A stretch of 64,000 nt of DNA, taken from positions 4,526,001 to 4,590,000 of the forward strand of contig NZ_CP070225.1 in assembly GCF_021631985.1 (NCBI RefSeq). Reading direction: 5' to 3'. Below are positions 22,814 through 30,625 of the stretch, one piece after another. The position numbers and the translations under genes were made by a program. Each line of letters begins with the position of its first letter. Position 1 is the stretch's first letter. This DNA is from Sandaracinus amylolyticus. GTDB lineage: Bacteria > Myxococcota_A > Polyangia > Polyangiales > Sandaracinaceae. The notes beneath the pieces were generated by a model. The model was not told the DNA's origin. It saw only the letters and a list, made by a program, of their open reading frames with translations, and did not search any database.

Positions 22814-23632
22814 ATGCGTCGCAGCGCCGCCGTGCTCCTCGCGATCGCGATCGCGCTCCTCGCGACGGTCGCGCGCGCCACGCCCGGCGATCACGACGAT
22901 CCGCGCCCGCGACGCGCGCGTCGCGCGACGCCCTCCACGTCGGTCGGGCTTCCGTTCCGCGGGCGCCTGCGCAACGGCGTGCTGCTGCGCGAGTCCGAGC
23001 ACGTGCGCTACGCCGGTGAGTACCGCGAGGGCGGGCGCTTCTACGGCACCGACGAGCTCGTGCAGCTGATCGAGCGATCCGCCGCGCGCGTGTCGCAGCG
23101 GCTGCCCGGCGCGCGCCTCTCGGTGGGCGAGCTCTCGGCGCGACAGGGAGGTCGCGTCAGCGGCCATCGCTCGCACCAGAACGGGCGCGACGTCGACATC
23201 GCGTTCTACATGATCGATCGCGACGGTCGTCCCTACGACCCGTGGGGCTTCGCGGCGTTCGATCGCCACGGCAACGGGATGCCGCCCAACGACGCGCTGC
23301 GCTTCGACGACGCGCGCAACTGGGAGCTCGTCGCGCGCCTGGTCGCCGATCCCGACGCGCGCGTGCAGTACGTCTTCGTCGCCGACACGCTGCGCCGGCG
23401 CCTGCTCGCGACCGCGCGCCGCCGCCGCGCCCCCGCGTCGATCGTCGCGCGCGCCGAGCAGCTCCTCGTGCAGCCCTCGCACGGGCACCCGCACCGCAAT
23501 CACTTCCACGTGCGCATCTACTGCCCGCCCGCGGATCGACCGACCTGCGAGGATCGCGAGCCCTTCCACGCGTGGTACCCGGGCACGCCGCCGCGCAGCG
23601 AGAGCGCGAGCGCCGAGGACGCCGCCGACTGA
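22814..23632 (+). CDS. mepA: penicillin-insensitive murein endopeptidase (family M74)
   Basis: A 272-residue periplasmic protein with signal peptide MRRSAAVLLAIAIALLATVARA. The M74 zinc site SGHRSHQNGRDVDIAFY has His 118, His 121 and Asp 126/128. The second ligand block PHRNHFHVRIYCPP lies near residues 231-244. MepA cuts the D-Ala-meso-DAP cross-link of peptidoglycan. The length and motif order fit the family. It is divergent from the AgmX-like lipoprotein and is followed by the D-aminoacylase gene, which could use released D-amino-acid derivatives, though that link is inference. Confidence 0.9.
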   Translation: MRRSAAVLLAIAIALLATVARATPGDHDDPRPRRARRATPSTSVGLPFRGRLRNGVLLRESEHVRYAGEYREGGRFYGTDELVQLIERSAARVSQRLPGARLSVGELSARQGGRVSGHRSHQNGRDVDIAFYMIDRDGRPYDPWGFAAFDRHGNGMPPNDALRFDDARNWELVARLVADPDARVQYVFVADTLRRRLLATARRRRAPASIVARAEQLLVQPSHGHPHRNHFHVRIYCPPADRPTCEDREPFHAWYPGTPPRSESASAEDAAD

Positions 23633-23704: not shown

Positions 23705-25339
23705 ATGCGCGTGCTCCTTCGCGATGCGACGATCATCGACGGCACCGGCGCCGAGGCCGACGCGGGCGACGTCCTGCTCGAAGACGATCACATCGCCGAG
23801 ATCGGCGCGACCACGCTCGCGCCCGACGAGGTGATCGACGCGCGCGGGCTCGTCGTCGCGCCCGGCTTCATCGACGTGCACTCGCACTCCGACTTCACGT
23901 TGCCCGGCGACCCCGAGGCGCGCGCGAAGGTGATGCAGGGCGTGACGAGCGAGGTCGTCGGCAACTGCGGCCTCGGGCTCTTCCCCTCGAACGAGACGGT
24001 CGAGCGCTTCTACGCGCTCCTCTCGCCGATGCTCTTCGGCGAGCCGGGAGGCGGATGCTTCCGCGACATCGCGTCGTACCGCGCGCGGCTCGAGGAACGC
24101 GGCGTGAGCGTCAACGTCGTGCCCCTCGTGCCCCACGGCAACGTGCGCTGCGAGGCGATGGGGCTCGCGGAGCGCGCCGCGCGTCCCGACGAGATCGCGC
24201 GCATGCGCGACAGCGTCGACACGAACATGCGGCAGGGCGCGTTCGGGCTCTCGACCGGGCTCGTCTACGCGCCGGGCGCGTTCGCCGACACCGAGGAGAT
24301 CGTCGAGCTCGCGAAGGTGAGCGCGGCGCACGGCGGCATCTACGCGTCGCACATGCGCGACGAGGGATCGCGCCTCGTGCAGTCGGTCGAGGAGACGCTG
24401 CGCATCGGACGCGAGGCGAAGATCCCCGTGCAGATCTCGCATCACAAGGCGGCCGGTCGCTGGAACTGGGGCAAGGTCGAGACGACGCTCGCGATGGTCG
24501 ATCGCGCGCGCGCCGAGGGCCTCGACGTGCACAGCGACGTCTACCCGTACACCGCGGGATCGACGGTGCTGAGCGCGATGTTCCTGCCGCTCTGGGCGTT
24601 CGAGGGCTCGCAGGATCGACTGCTCGAGCGGCTGCGCGATCCCGAGGTGCGCAAGCAGATCGTGGAGGGCAGCAAGGAGCGCATGATGAAGCTCGCACAG
24701 CTGCCGGGCGTGCTCGATCGCATCGTGCCCAAGCGCTTGATCCTGCCCTTCGTGCTCTTCGAGCTGAGCCGCCTCGTGGTGGTGAGCTCGCTGAAGAACC
24801 AGCAGCAGTACGAGGGCATGACGCTGCGCGAGATCGCGAAGGCGCGAAAGCAGAAGCTCTACGACATGCTGCTCGATCTGCTGGTCGAGGAAGAGCTCGC
24901 GATCGCGGCGATCGCGCACGTGATGAGCGAGGACGACGTGCAGCGCGTGATGGCGCACGACGCGACGATGATCGGCACCGATGGCTTCCCGCAGCGCGAG
25001 GGCAAGCCGCACCCGCGCGCGTTCGGCACCTATGCGCGCGTGATCGAGCACTACGTGCGCGAGCGACGTCTCTTCGGGATCGAGACCGCGATCCACAAGA
25101 TGACGGGCATGGTCGCGAAGAAGCTCGGGCTGCGCGATCGCGGTGTGCTGCGAGCGGGCGCGAAGGCGGACGTGGTGGTGCTCGACGCGGCGAGAGTGAA
25201 GGACCGCGCGACGTACGCGAGCCCGAAGAACCACCCCGAAGGCATCGTGCACGTGTTCGTGAACGGCGTGCACACGGTGAAGGACGGGAAGCACACCGGA
25301 GCGCGCGGCGGGCGCGTGCTGCACCGCGCGGCGGGCTGA
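23705..25339 (+). CDS. N-acyl-D-amino-acid deacylase (D-aminoacylase)
   Basis: A 544-residue amidohydrolase-3-type protein. It begins with the small beta domain (LLRDATIIDGTGAEADAGDVLLED) and the metal site APGFIDVHSHSDF near residues 53-65. Then come VVGNCGLGLFPS, the ASHMRDEGSRLVQSV block, VQISHHKAAG, the DVYPYTAGST segment and the C-terminal GTDGFPQREGKPHPRAFGTY. These are the conserved blocks of D-aminoacylases, which hydrolyse N-acyl-D-amino acids to free D-amino acids. No signal peptide is present, so it is cytoplasmic. The ATG is well placed. Confidence 0.92.
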   Translation: MRVLLRDATIIDGTGAEADAGDVLLEDDHIAEIGATTLAPDEVIDARGLVVAPGFIDVHSHSDFTLPGDPEARAKVMQGVTSEVVGNCGLGLFPSNETVERFYALLSPMLFGEPGGGCFRDIASYRARLEERGVSVNVVPLVPHGNVRCEAMGLAERAARPDEIARMRDSVDTNMRQGAFGLSTGLVYAPGAFADTEEIVELAKVSAAHGGIYASHMRDEGSRLVQSVEETLRIGREAKIPVQISHHKAAGRWNWGKVETTLAMVDRARAEGLDVHSDVYPYTAGSTVLSAMFLPLWAFEGSQDRLLERLRDPEVRKQIVEGSKERMMKLAQLPGVLDRIVPKRLILPFVLFELSRLVVVSSLKNQQQYEGMTLREIAKARKQKLYDMLLDLLVEEELAIAAIAHVMSEDDVQRVMAHDATMIGTDGFPQREGKPHPRAFGTYARVIEHYVRERRLFGIETAIHKMTGMVAKKLGLRDRGVLRAGAKADVVVLDAARVKDRATYASPKNHPEGIVHVFVNGVHTVKDGKHTGARGGRVLHRAAG

Positions 25340-25547: not shown

Positions 25548-27437
25548 CTATCCAGACGTCCACCCCTCGCACCAAGACCAGTTCCCCCCGGCCGGCACCA
25601 TGCACACCTGAAGATCGAACCGCGGCCAGCTCCACCCCCGAGGCACGTAGAACACCACCCGTCGCGCCCCCTCGATCACCCCACGCACCGATCGGATCTC
25701 GGTGTCGCTCACCATCCGATCGCGCCGCACCCGCAGCGCCCAGGTCGCGCCCTCGGGCGCATCGCGATCGAGCGTCGCGACCACCGTCGTCGCCTCGTCG
25801 TCGCGCGCCGTCACCGCCGCGCCCGCGCGCGGCAGCGCCTCGATCGCGTCCGCGTGATCGCGCGCCACCTCGTCGATCACGCGCTCCATCGCCCCGCGCG
25901 CCGCGACCTCGCTGCACCCGATCGACTGCAGCGCGTCCTGCCACAGCGCGAGCGGCTCGAGATCCTGCGGCGCATCGCTGCGCCCGATCGCGCGCATCAC
26001 GTCGCCCACCGCGCGCTCGCCGCACGCCCGCGCGATGCCCTCGGTGAGCACCTCGCCCAGCGAGTACGCGAGCGACGTGTCGAAGCGCTGCCGCAGCGAC
26101 TCGTCGTCGAGCACGTCCTCGAGCTGTAGCCGATGCCGCGTCCATCCCGCCGCCGCGACGATGCGCGACTCCGTCAGCGCCGCCTCGTTCGGCACCACCT
26201 GGTACGCGACCCACTCCGCCGAGCCCTCGACGAACGCGCGCGTCCCGCGCTGCGTCATCAACCGTCGATCGGACTCGCGCCCCTGCAGCACGTGCGTGCT
26301 CTCGTGCGCGAGCACGTGGCGCAGCCGCACCTCGTCGTCCTGCCCCACGAGGCCCATCCGGATGCGCGTCCCCGCCGCGATGCCCTCGTGGTGCGCGCTC
26401 GTCTCCGCGAGATCGACCGTGATGAACGGCACCTCGCGCGCTCCGACCACGCGCGCCACCGATTCCGCGATCTCGTCGGCGCTCCCCACCAGGCGCAACG
26501 CGCGCGCCCGCAAGTTCGTCGGGTACACGAACGCGTAGTGCTCGGTGCGCGCCTCCGCGGTCTGCCACGCGATGCCCTCGGGCTCGTCGCTCGGCATCCC
26601 GTCCTCCTCGACGGAGCGCACCGCGAGGAACGTCATCACCGCGAGCCCCGCGAACACGACCAGCGCGGTGCCGCACCCGAACGCGATCGCCGCCCCTCGC
26701 GCGTCGCGCTTCGGTGCCAGCGCGTCGCGCAGCTGCTCGAAGGGACCCATCCACACCGCGTACGAGATCCCCAGCGCCGCGATCGCGATCGGCACGTGCA
26801 CCGCGATGTCGCCCCACGGCACCAGCAGCACCTGCCCGCGGTACGCGAGCCGACAGATCGACGCGGGGTTCAGCCACGCGAGCGAGGGCTCGATCTCCTC
26901 CGCCGCGAGGATCACGAACATCACCAGCGCGTACGGCAGCAACCCGAAGCGGCGCATCGTCGACGCGAGCACGCCGTGCGCGTAGAGCACGAGCACGAAG
27001 GTCGCCTGCAGCGCGCCCGCCCCGACCGCGACGTCGAGCCGGAACTGATCGCCGATGAAGCTCTGAGGGTTCGGCAGCTGGAGCAGCCAGTTCGTCACCT
27101 GGCCGAGCGCGGTGAAGAACACCAGCACGCCCGCGCCCGCGAGCATCTTCGCGCCGAAGATCGCGCGCCGCGTCACCGGCAGCGAGCGCAGGAAGTCGAT
27201 CGTCCCGTCGTCGTGCTCGCGCGGGAACGCGGCGTACGCGACGGCGAACGCGACGAGCGCGAGCATGAACGCGAGCTCGCCGCCCTCCCCCGGATCGATG
27301 CTCGCGATCGACGACCAGGTCGCGACGTCGAGCTGCTCGGTGAGCGGGCGCGAGATCACGTCGCCGCTGATCGCGAAGAAACACAGCAGCGCGTGCGGGG
27401 CCAGCGCGCGCAGCTCCTTGCGCAAGAGCGCGATCAC
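25548..27437 (-). CDS. ABC-2 permease fused to an HExxH peptidase-like domain
   Basis: A 629-residue protein from a GTG that overlaps the previous stop (GTGA). Residues 1 to about 290 form an ABC-2-type membrane domain with six or so helices (FLRSLPVTRRAIFGAKMLAG is the typical loop; LLPYALVMFVILAAEEIEP and ALVVFAGLAVMTFLAV are helices). The extracytoplasmic C-terminal half carries VLAHESTHVLQG with HESTH at residues 378-382. FVEGSAEWVAYQ follows with Glu 404, which fits the third ligand of gluzincin (Peptidase_MA/M1-like) zinc peptidases. Fusions of ABC permeases to M1-type peptidases are known. It forms an operon with a second, degenerate permease-peptidase and an ATPase. Confidence 0.85.
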   Translation of the reverse strand: MIALLRKELRALAPHALLCFFAISGDVISRPLTEQLDVATWSSIASIDPGEGGELAFMLALVAFAVAYAAFPREHDDGTIDFLRSLPVTRRAIFGAKMLAGAGVLVFFTALGQVTNWLLQLPNPQSFIGDQFRLDVAVGAGALQATFVLVLYAHGVLASTMRRFGLLPYALVMFVILAAEEIEPSLAWLNPASICRLAYRGQVLLVPWGDIAVHVPIAIAALGISYAVWMGPFEQLRDALAPKRDARGAAIAFGCGTALVVFAGLAVMTFLAVRSVEEDGMPSDEPEGIAWQTAEARTEHYAFVYPTNLRARALRLVGSADEIAESVARVVGAREVPFITVDLAETSAHHEGIAAGTRIRMGLVGQDDEVRLRHVLAHESTHVLQGRESDRRLMTQRGTRAFVEGSAEWVAYQVVPNEAALTESRIVAAAGWTRHRLQLEDVLDDESLRQRFDTSLAYSLGEVLTEGIARACGERAVGDVMRAIGRSDAPQDLEPLALWQDALQSIGCSEVAARGAMERVIDEVARDHADAIEALPRAGAAVTARDDEATTVVATLDRDAPEGATWALRVRRDRMVSDTEIRSVRGVIEGARRVVFYVPRGWSWPRFDLQVCMVPAGGNWSWCEGWTSG

Positions 27438-29326
27438 GGCACCTCCACGCGCGCTTCGGCGAGACGCGCGGGCGCGCCGAGCGGCGTGCCCTCGAGGTCG
27501 AGCGCGACCCACACCCGCGAGCCCGGCCCGTAGCGGCCCGGCAGGCGCATCTCGATCGAGCGCTCGCCGTCGGGCCACGCGCGCTCCTCGCGCTGCGGCT
27601 CCCATGGCCAGACGAAGTCGTCGAAGGGCCCGTCGTCGAAGTGCGCCAGCGAGACCGTCGTGCCGGGCGGCGGCGGACGATCGAGCGTCGCCCGCGCGAC
27701 GATCGTGGGGAGGCCGTCGATGATCTCCACGTCGATGCGCGCCTCGACGCGCGGCACCCACGCGTCGCGGTGGCTCGCGCGCAGCGACGCGAGCCGCGCG
27801 TACCACGCCTCGATCAGCGCGCGCTCTTCGATGCCCGCCACCTCGCGCAGCGTGCGCGACAGCGGGTGCAACCAGCCGTGCACCACCGCGCGGAAGTCGT
27901 CGGGCGGCTCCTGCCCGTACAGCGCGCGCCCCAGCGCGAAGACCGCGTCGCGCCCGCGCTGCTCCTCGAGCACGTCGATCCCCACCGCGGCGAGCGCGCC
28001 CGCGACGCGCTCGCCTTCGCGCTGGATCGTGCGATCCCACGCGCGCAGCCGCGACGCGTCGGGCCCGCGCTCGCGGGTCGCCCACAGCGCGCGCTGCACG
28101 ATCGTCTGCGGCAGCTCGGCGTCGTCGCGATGCGGCCACCACGCCGCGATCCCGTCGCGCGGCCACTCGATCGGCTCCCACAGCGCGCGCCCGCCGGTCG
28201 CATCGTCGATCACGAGCCCGACGATCTCCGACAGCAGCGCGTCCTCGTCCCACTCCGGGCCGCGACGATAGTTCGCGCGCACGAGGATCCCGTCGTCCTC
28301 GCCGAGCGTCACGCGCTCGAACGTCGTCCCGTCGAGCCGCTCGGAGAGCGCGACGCGCACCTTCGGCAGCGCGTCCCAGCCCATCGCGTCGCGCAGCGGC
28401 GGTAGCTCCCTCGTGAAGCGGGCCATCAGCGCCTCGGCATCGGGCAGCGCGTCCTCGGTGCCGTACATGATCTCGATCGGCGCATCGCTCGCGCGCAGGA
28501 CGCCGCCCTCGGGCCACTCGTAGGGCGGACGCTGGTTCGGCGGCGAGAGCTCCACCCACGCGATCAGGATCGCGATCACGACGATCGCGAGGGTCACGCC
28601 CTCGCGCATGCTCATCCGCTTCGCGAGCGTCTCGGCGACCGACCCCTCGCGCACCGTCGCGAGCCCGATCGCGAGCAGCGCCCAGCCCACCGCGAGCGCG
28701 AGCGTCACGAGCAGCGGCTCGACCGGCCAGCGCGTGCGCTCGAGCACGAAGTCCTCGGCGACCAGCGCGATCGGCCCGAAGCGCGACACCTCGAGCTCGG
28801 TCGCGTCCGCGACCAGCGCGAGCCCGATCCCGATCGCGAGGTAGAGCGGCACGCGCAGCCGCCCGAGCAGGCCCATCGCGGTGAACCAGCACATCCCGAA
28901 GAGCGCGTAGGTCGCGGTGCGCGCCGCGAGGATGCCGACGAAGAGCGCGTCGATCGGCTCGCGCGTGACCGCGAGCACCAGCGTCGCGCCGAGCGAGCCC
29001 AGCGCGAGCGCTTCGATCACCAGCACGCCGAGCACGAGCTTCACGACGATCACGTCGGTGCGCCCGAGCGGCAGCGCCTCGAGGAAGCGCTGGGTGCGCC
29101 CGTGGTACTCCGCGACGACCAGCCGATTGCCGAGCGCGAGGCCCAGGACCGGCAGGAAGAACCGCATCAGCCAGGCGTGCACCTCGAGGTACGTCACGGT
29201 CGCGGGCTGCGCGAGGATGATCAGCGAGAGCAGCGCCCACGCGATGCCCATGAAGAGCACGAGCATCGCGAGCGCGACCGCGTGCTCCGCGACGTCCTTC
29301 AGCGCCAGCGCGGCGATGCGCTTCAT
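27434..29326 (-). CDS. ABC-2 permease with degenerate peptidase-like domain
   Basis: A 630-residue paralogue-like partner of the downstream gene. An N-terminal ABC-2 membrane region (FFLPVLGLALGNRLVVAEYH, QRFLEALPLGRTDVIVVKLV and further helices to about residue 270) is followed by a large extracytoplasmic region. Where the partner has HESTH, this protein reads LLSEIVGLVIDD, and the later EGSAEW is WPRDGIAAWW. The zinc ligands are therefore lost. The remaining C-terminal part looks like a beta-sandwich (TTVSLAHFDDGPFDDFVWPW). Its start overlaps the ATPase gene stop and its stop overlaps the next start, so the three genes are coupled. Confidence 0.82.
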   Translation of the reverse strand: MKRIAALALKDVAEHAVALAMLVLFMGIAWALLSLIILAQPATVTYLEVHAWLMRFFLPVLGLALGNRLVVAEYHGRTQRFLEALPLGRTDVIVVKLVLGVLVIEALALGSLGATLVLAVTREPIDALFVGILAARTATYALFGMCWFTAMGLLGRLRVPLYLAIGIGLALVADATELEVSRFGPIALVAEDFVLERTRWPVEPLLVTLALAVGWALLAIGLATVREGSVAETLAKRMSMREGVTLAIVVIAILIAWVELSPPNQRPPYEWPEGGVLRASDAPIEIMYGTEDALPDAEALMARFTRELPPLRDAMGWDALPKVRVALSERLDGTTFERVTLGEDDGILVRANYRRGPEWDEDALLSEIVGLVIDDATGGRALWEPIEWPRDGIAAWWPHRDDAELPQTIVQRALWATRERGPDASRLRAWDRTIQREGERVAGALAAVGIDVLEEQRGRDAVFALGRALYGQEPPDDFRAVVHGWLHPLSRTLREVAGIEERALIEAWYARLASLRASHRDAWVPRVEARIDVEIIDGLPTIVARATLDRPPPPGTTVSLAHFDDGPFDDFVWPWEPQREERAWPDGERSIEMRLPGRYGPGSRVWVALDLEGTPLGAPARLAEARVEVP

Positions 29327-30222
29327 GCGCTGCGCCGCACCATCGCGATGAACACTTCTTCCAGCGGGAGCAGCTCGATCACCGCGTCGGGGATCATCGG
29401 TGCGAGCGCGTCGAAGCGCCCCGGATCGTCGCTCTCCACGACGATGCGGCGCTCGCCCTCGCGCACCTCCTCGTGTCGCACCGCGAGCTGCAGCTCCGTG
29501 ATCGCCGCGTGCAGCGGCGCGGGATCCGCGAGCTCGCTCGCGCGCACCACTCGCACGCGCTGCACCAGCTCGTCGATGCTGCCCTCGTAGCGCGTCCTTC
29601 CCCCGTCGACGACGCCGACCCGGTTCGCGACGAGCTCGATCTCGTCGACGAGATGGCTCGAGAAGAACGTGGTGCGCCCGCTGTGCTCCGCCTCGTGCCG
29701 CACGATCTCGAGGAACTCGCGGCGCGCGACGGGATCGAGCCCCGCGGTCGGCTCGTCGAGGAGCAGGAGCGGCGGGCGATGCGCGAGCGCCAGCGCGAGC
29801 GCGAGCTTCACCTTCGTGCCGCCCGAGAACGTGCGGATGCGCTGCGCGCTCGGCACGTCGAGCACGCGCAAGAGGCGCGTGTACTCCGCGTCGTCCCACC
29901 GCGGGAAGAACGAGCGCACGAAGCGCGCGATCGAGACCGGCGTCATCCAGCCGTAGAACGACTGCTCCTGCGCGACGTACCCGATGCGCTGTCGCCACGA
30001 CACGAGGTCGCGTCCGCCCGCCTCGCCGAACATCCGCACCGAGCCCCCGCTCGGCCGCGTGATGCCCATGAGGATGCGGATGGTCGTCGACTTCCCCGCG
30101 CCGTTGCGCCCGAGGAACCCGTACACGTCCCCGGGCCGCACGGTGAGATCCAACCCGCGCAGCGCCTCGATCGCGCCGTAGCGCTTCGTCAGCCCGCGCA
30201 CCTCGATGACGTCGGGATCCAC
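29323..30222 (-). CDS. ABC transporter ATP-binding protein
   Basis: A 299-residue nucleotide-binding subunit. Walker A is FLGRNGAGKSTT near residues 36-47, the Q-loop is YVAQEQ, the signature is FSGGTKVKLALALALAH, Walker B is LLLLDEPTAGLDP and the switch His is in FSSHLVDEIE. The C-terminal 80 residues form the extra domain typical of ATPases that pair with ABC-2 permeases (YEGSIDELVQRVRVV). It is the first gene of the exporter operon and overlaps the first permease gene by four bases. The cargo is unknown; the fused peptidase-like domains suggest a peptide or protein. Confidence 0.93.
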   Translation of the reverse strand: MDPDVIEVRGLTKRYGAIEALRGLDLTVRPGDVYGFLGRNGAGKSTTIRILMGITRPSGGSVRMFGEAGGRDLVSWRQRIGYVAQEQSFYGWMTPVSIARFVRSFFPRWDDAEYTRLLRVLDVPSAQRIRTFSGGTKVKLALALALAHRPPLLLLDEPTAGLDPVARREFLEIVRHEAEHSGRTTFFSSHLVDEIELVANRVGVVDGGRTRYEGSIDELVQRVRVVRASELADPAPLHAAITELQLAVRHEEVREGERRIVVESDDPGRFDALAPMIPDAVIELLPLEEVFIAMVRRSA

Positions 30223-30253
30223 GCGCCACGCGTTCTAACACGCGTGGCCGGCG

Positions 30254-30625
30254 TCACCTCTTGTTGTAGCGGGCGAGGTAGTGCGCGAACGCGTCGTCGA
30301 GCACGCGATCGAGCCGCGACTGCTCGCGCGGATCACGCAGCTGCTTGACGACGATGTTGCGGAAGTGCTTCGCGATCTCGCGCGCCGCCGCGGCACGCTT
30401 GTCGGGCGGCATCGAGCCGATGCTGTCCGCGGTCGTCGAGTGCTCGACCTGCCACGCGCGCACCGCCATCAGCCAGAAGCCGCGACACGGGAACGGATCC
30501 AGCCCGATCTTCGTGCCGACGAGGTTCCCGAGATCCTTCACCAGCGCTTCTTGCACCGGCTGGAGCTGGACGCTCTCGTAGGCCTTCGCTGCATCTCGAA
30601 CGGCGCCGGAGTCGAACTCGAACAT
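30254..30625 (-). CDS. hypothetical protein
   Basis: A 123-residue protein that I do not recognise. It is mostly helical (VQPVQEALVKDLGNL-like and AAREIAKHFRNIVVKQL segments), with a single Cys in DPFPCRGFWLMAVRAW and a basic C-terminus ending LARYNKR. There is no signal peptide or membrane helix, so it is expected in the cytoplasm. It stands alone between the exporter operon and the divergent MYXO-CTERM protease gene. A frame with consistent composition and no better overlapping gene supports its reality. Confidence 0.6.
   Translation of the reverse strand: MFEFDSGAVRDAAKAYESVQLQPVQEALVKDLGNLVGTKIGLDPFPCRGFWLMAVRAWQVEHSTTADSIGSMPPDKRAAAAREIAKHFRNIVVKQLRDPREQSRLDRVLDDAFAHYLARYNKR

Follow-up and report, generated by a model that had tools for sequence, protein, structure and literature searches.

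The window analysed here (the whole stretch of 64,000 nucleotides, from a host genome of 10.96 Mb) contains on its reverse strand a three-gene operon, C, A and B (25548–30222), whose neighbouring starts and stops overlap. Gene C (29323–30222, GTG start) encodes an ABC-2-type exporter ATPase of 299 aa (PF00005, E 5e-27) in which the Walker A, signature, Walker B and H-loop motifs are all intact. Gene A (27434–29326) encodes a half-permease with a degenerate gluzincin-fold ectodomain (630 aa; homologous to the B protein along its length), and gene B (25548–27437, GTG start) a half-permease with a predicted catalytically intact gluzincin ectodomain (629 aa). The stop of C overlaps the start of A in ATGA and the stop of A overlaps the start of B in GTGA, as expected for translational coupling. 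B matches the ABC-2 permease profile PF12679 at 33.3 bits, above the cut-off of 27.2, and A scores 21.7 bits with the same profile, below the cut-off; a search with the profile of the A family finds NosY (E 0.0019). Judged by sequence and predicted structure, C-A-B is a complete ABC-2-type transporter.

Four bases before the ATPase start lies a perfect 8-bp inverted repeat (30226–30247; CCACGCGT, a 6-bp spacer and ACGCGTGG), a possible operator or hairpin that is statistically weak and has no exact copy in the corresponding region of the near relative. An ORF of 123 aa without any Pfam match (30254–30625, reverse strand), just upstream of the ATPase gene and on the same strand, was otherwise seen only in the same-genus relative and is therefore probably outside the system. 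Near the operon, on the other strand, are genes for a penicillin-insensitive murein endopeptidase (22814–23632; Peptidase_M74, E 4.5e-19) and an amidohydrolase-family protein that is D-aminoacylase-like by eye (23705–25339; convergent with gene B).

Hydropathy averaged over 22 homologues per subunit gave exactly seven hydrophobic segments in each permease, with family-average centres at 26, 62, 110, 139, 169, 214 and 253 in A and at 24, 63, 102, 149, 170, 220 and 260 in B, and lysine and arginine are enriched in the N-terminus and in loops 2–3, 4–5 and 6–7 of both families. The predicted arrangement in each permease is six segments of ABC-2 type plus a seventh (residues ~247–260 of A, 28547–28588; residues ~251–270 of B, 26628–26687; both reverse strand) which leads into a C-terminal domain of ~350 residues. 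The C-terminus of an ordinary six-segment ABC-2 permease would stay in the cytoplasm; we rejected a cytoplasmic ectodomain, the standard expectation, given the seventh segment and the K/R charge pattern. The seven-segment topology thus places both ectodomains outside the cytoplasm, in agreement with the sequence-only reading, which had given both ABC-2 permeases a large extracytoplasmic domain. Two cysteines of B, C472 (26022–26024) and C508 (25914–25916), occur jointly in Sandaracinaceae and most near relatives and are both missing in Massilia, as the two partners of a disulfide would be (one locus, L035, keeps one of them); a disulfide would fit an extracytoplasmic site.

The ectodomains were modelled alone, as single chains, with AlphaFold2 from 20-row family alignments, reaching a pLDDT of 94.1 for B (residues 287–629; 25551–26579, reverse strand) and 91.1 for A (residues 258–630; 27437–28555, reverse strand), each model consisting of a peptidase or pseudo-peptidase domain and, at its end, a further beta-rich C-terminal domain. 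The B model falls among M1 aminopeptidases in a Foldseek search against the PDB (E 6e-6, prob 1.00) and aligns with lugdulysin, LTA4 hydrolase and aminopeptidase N at Z ~14 over 214–258 residues (VIA-align). The best structural matches of the A model are the TFIID chain 7edx_B, aminopeptidases and clostridial collagenases (Z 12–13.6), and its Foldseek E-value against puromycin-sensitive aminopeptidase is 1.5e-5; 7edx_B is, we take it, TAF2, itself a dead M1 relative. Brr2 and Kir channels, also in the Foldseek list for A, were set aside at TM-scores of ~0.2, and a viral fold library gave only weak partial matches to the A domain. Both ectodomains are predicted with high confidence to have an M1-like gluzincin fold, the feature on whose presence the earlier proposal had been made to depend.

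In B, HESTH at residues 378–382 (26292–26306, reverse strand, as are the other positions in this paragraph) would provide zinc ligands and the catalytic Glu, EGSAEW at 404–409 (26211–26228) the third zinc ligand, E404, and Y458 (26064–26066) is, judged by its position, the likely gluzincin transition-state tyrosine. This is the full catalytic set, HExxH-x(20-22)-EGxA...YxxG, and H378, E379, H382, E404, G405, A407 and Y458 are all invariant among the 22 aligned B sequences, whose identity to the window protein goes down to 23%. Only 22 columns of the whole B protein are invariant, the active-site residues among them, and outside the membrane part the active site is the only strictly invariant cluster. 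HExxH and the downstream Glu ligand are found in B at 9 further loci as well, all with YxxG, so that the motif is present in every B homologue examined; homologues with a non-conserved HExxH, which would have refuted the earlier proposal, did not turn up among them. A chance motif was rejected on this strict conservation and on shuffling of the window's B ectodomain, in which HExxH-x(10-40)-EGxA arose in 9 of 20,000 shuffles. By all sequence and fold criteria, the B ectodomain is a predicted zinc metallopeptidase.

The corresponding positions of A read SEIVG at residues 366–370 (28217–28231, reverse strand), without ligand residues, and RDGIAAW at 390–396 (28139–28159, reverse strand), with the third ligand lost. 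The sequence-only reading had named both B motifs and both A counterparts, and all four were found, HESTH at the residues it had given; the pairing of RDGIAAW with EGSAEW is clear, and the register of SEIVG against HExxH is uncertain by ~4 residues owing to a gap. In a profile-profile comparison (hhalign) A and B align almost from end to end (probability 99.7, E 4e-27), and the ectodomains alone still align at a probability of 95 (E 3e-8). None of the 22 A homologues has the catalytic set, nor does A at 8 further loci, and the A columns that match the B active site are variable among the 22 sequences. Around the lost third ligand, R380 and W388 of A are invariant and G392 is kept in 21 of the 22, so the dead cleft is still constrained. 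The A ectodomain, as aligned and modelled, has kept the fold and lost the five catalytic residues.

A-B pairs were found in 31 genomes of Myxococcota, Pseudomonadota and Acidobacteriota (the 22 aligned pairs, one in genome G009 and 8 loci found through A), with HExxH in B in 31/31 and in A in 0/31. The nearest named relatives of the window among these loci are Sandaracinaceae (Myxococcota), and A and B are present and adjacent in 8 of the 9 other genomes searched from the window's family; one same-genus genome is without the operon, which indicates that the operon is dispensable. A scan of 84,980 species genomes gave 21 loci, of which 20 contain both permeases in unchanged order; by title they belong to Myxococcota, Acidobacteriota and Pseudomonadota (Granulosicoccaceae, Massilia and one gammaproteobacterium). 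Because the scan pattern included HExxH and was no fair test of its conservation, the search was repeated starting from A, whose sequence lacks HExxH. This yielded 8 more loci with both genes (one Myxococcota family contributed four and the Massilia family two, and the G542-centred and G545-centred samples added one apiece). At all 8, HExxH, EGxA and YxxG are present in the adjacent B and all missing from A, so ascertainment bias was rejected. At two loci (L037 and L041) the B gene is cut by the contig end, downstream of the active site. Outside the home family the pair is rare, with strong E-values in 3/195 Massilia-family genomes and in 3/347 and 2/321 genomes of two other samples. An ATPase gene of the same type lies just upstream in nearly all loci (none was recovered in L043), which answers the earlier question of whether intact and degenerate subunits always travel with the same ATPase. 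With 31 pairs, the predicted folds and the ATPase, the idea that one transporter unites a catalytic and a pseudo-catalytic subunit has good support as anatomy; the functional half of that proposal, in which cargo would be cut or checked or envelope peptides sensed, describes a putative role.

A 100/100 branch divides a maximum-likelihood tree of 44 rows into an A side and a B side, and distances among the A proteins track those among the B proteins (matrix correlation r 0.94, permutation p 1e-4). A and B are paralogues from one ancient duplication; tree and matrices together place it before the spread across phyla and imply that the pair moves together and that catalysis was lost in A, most simply, once. 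Between the window and its nearest relative, the ectodomain dN/dS is 0.18 for B and 0.21 for A, which indicates purifying selection on both, the dead domain included; the value for A and the ancient single origin led us to reject A as a decaying copy.

The nearest known architecture is a family of single-chain proteins of 1196–1247 aa in the Massilia family, which fuse an ABC-2-type membrane part to a C-terminal, probably periplasmic gluzincin and which presumably carry the database name 'ABC transporter permease/M1 family aminopeptidase'. Like C-A-B, these fusions have one live gluzincin per transporter. In the fusions, however, both half-permeases lie in one chain with about a dozen membrane segments and a single M1 domain over the Pfam cut-off, without a second, dead ectodomain, whereas the window has two genes and two ectodomains. 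The A profile gave no match to the fusions and the B profile a weak match to membrane segments only; C-A-B belongs to a different family. Massilia-family genomes (L207, L208, L209, L210 and L211) contain one or more fusions of ~1200 aa, and one genome (G541) has two of them besides A-B, so both designs coexist in one genome.

B has in common with M1 enzymes and other gluzincins (LTA4H, aminopeptidase N, the M30 peptidase lugdulysin and collagenase) the fold of the catalytic domain and HExxH with a downstream Glu. Unlike M1 aminopeptidases, it lacks the M1 N-terminal domain and the GxMEN exopeptidase motif, which is absent from 22/22 B and 22/22 A sequences. Peptidase_M1 (PF01433) has no match in the window protein at E 1 and one match (E 0.0012) among 20 homologue ectodomains; no relevant Pfam match for the window ectodomains reaches its cut-off, and the ectodomains are covered by no curated family. 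NosY and other ABC-2 permeases resemble A and B in their six membrane segments and separate ATPase gene, and differ in size: NosY has 276 aa, and A and B each add a seventh segment and the ectodomain. PCAT and HlyB-type exporters, too, have a peptidase or pseudo-peptidase built into an ABC exporter; there cargo is handled on the cytoplasmic side by a C39 domain, either active or dead, and substrate recruitment requires the dead, C39-like one (PMC6363468, PMC8277102). C39 is an N-terminal, cytoplasmic cysteine peptidase on a type IV exporter, whereas C-A-B has a C-terminal, extracytoplasmic metallopeptidase on an ABC-2 scaffold, and Pfam gave no C39 match in C-A-B at E 1. Membership in M1, in the ABC-2/M1 fusion family or in PCAT fails at a defining feature in each case.

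We consider coupled export and processing at the outer exit the most likely mechanism, at a probability of roughly 45%. The transporter would presumably assemble as C2-A-B, with C2 driving the A-B pore and the M1-like gluzincin domains on the periplasmic side near the translocation exit. A peptide, polypeptide or peptide-like compound would move outward and emerge between the ectodomains, which are assumed to face each other; the dead domain of A may capture or position the emerging chain, by analogy with the inactive C39-like domain that HlyB has on the cytoplasmic side, and that of B may cut it, which would couple export and processing in one complex. The anatomy rests on sequence and prediction; cargo, direction and proteolysis are inferred. 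In favour of this mechanism count the architecture of each subunit, a pump fused to a peptidase, across 31 genomes from several phyla, the catalytic set invariant in B and absent in A, the predicted gluzincin folds with intact ATPase motifs, the 100/100 branch with r 0.94 and dN/dS of 0.18–0.21, and the precedent of active and dead peptidase domains in PCAT and HlyB (PMC6363468, PMC8277102). Against it counts the genomic context: the flank comparison of loci found nothing conserved beyond C-A-B, and no conserved cargo gene, leader-peptide gene, or membrane-fusion or outer-membrane partner in the operon flanks compared.

A lopsided live/dead pair kept in at least three phyla suggests that the pump cuts or checks what moves through it. 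We found no earlier description of an active/dead gluzincin ABC-2 pair in the open-access literature, and propose tentatively, at somewhat less than even odds, that C-A-B represents a class of ABC exporter not yet described, which bears a 'processing head' outside the cytoplasm: one live and one dead M1-like peptidase domain in an obligate pair, of which the dead member would act as receptor for the cargo or as allosteric regulator and its live partner would process cargo at the exit. Known examples of cargo-processing ABC exporters have cysteine peptidase domains in the cytoplasm; in the C-A-B family a metallopeptidase would sit beyond the membrane together with a dead twin, an asymmetry kept across phyla. 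If true, the processing head would correspond, on the trans side, to the C39 domains of PCAT and HlyB and would have persisted since a single ancient duplication. As direct paralogues within a single predicted complex, the live and dead copies would also offer a clean natural case for the role of a pseudoenzyme inside a transporter.

The same genomic context bears on the foremost of three rivals, an unlikely one in our view, in which the pump extrudes antimicrobial or membrane-inserted peptides that B would destroy at the membrane surface, with A as a ligand trap. Three Sandaracinaceae have a TetR-family gene immediately upstream of the operon and in its orientation (L126:4501-5148, L125:4500-5141 and L124:11375-12028; Pfam confirms two of them and similarity the third), an arrangement common among inducible efflux pumps; the best NCBIfam model for the ATPase is the PSM exporter PmtA; and the operon is dispensable and rare outside its home family, all of which would suit such detoxification. 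The TetR linkage, however, is limited to these three genomes and absent in the window itself, the PmtA match is well below its cut-off and the similarity generic, and no resistance genes recur near the operon in the flank comparison. A role as a defence system was rejected separately, as PADLOC gave no permease match and generic ATPase matches only; plasmid carriage had no match, and no Rfam elements were found near the operon.

A still less probable rival is an ATP-gated envelope protease with little or no export, in which ATP hydrolysis would open and close the site of B on an envelope substrate and the domain of A would act as allosteric regulator, by mechanotransmission of FtsEX or MacB type. 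The active site as the sole strictly invariant cluster of B outside the membrane part, the conserved and constrained dead partner and the lack of a linked cargo gene are all consistent with it. FtsX and MacB have the four-segment type VII fold, however, and A and B are of the different ABC-2/NosY type and both keep the six transporter segments. Least probable, and in our view improbable, is a hydrolase for non-peptide cargo, in which the pump would move a lipid- or drug-like molecule and the gluzincin site of B would act on it. The best structural matches of B include LTA4 hydrolase (Z ~14), and ABC-2 pumps often move lipids, glycans or drugs; but LTA4 hydrolase doubles as an aminopeptidase that has this same site, B keeps the full peptidase set, and no biosynthetic genes recur nearby in the flank comparison.

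Some loci show features of their own. In Granulosicoccaceae a rhomboid protease gene precedes the operon, and in two Acidobacteriota loci a DoxX gene follows it. One metagenome-assembled genome carries, besides its A-B locus (L045), a stand-alone relative of the B ectodomain (L049:5965-7686) with HETAH and EGLA and without a permease part, in which a hydrophobic stretch stands at the N-terminus and Sel1-like repeats follow the peptidase; the B protein of L045 has a C-terminal extension that is, by eye, similar to that of this stand-alone protein.
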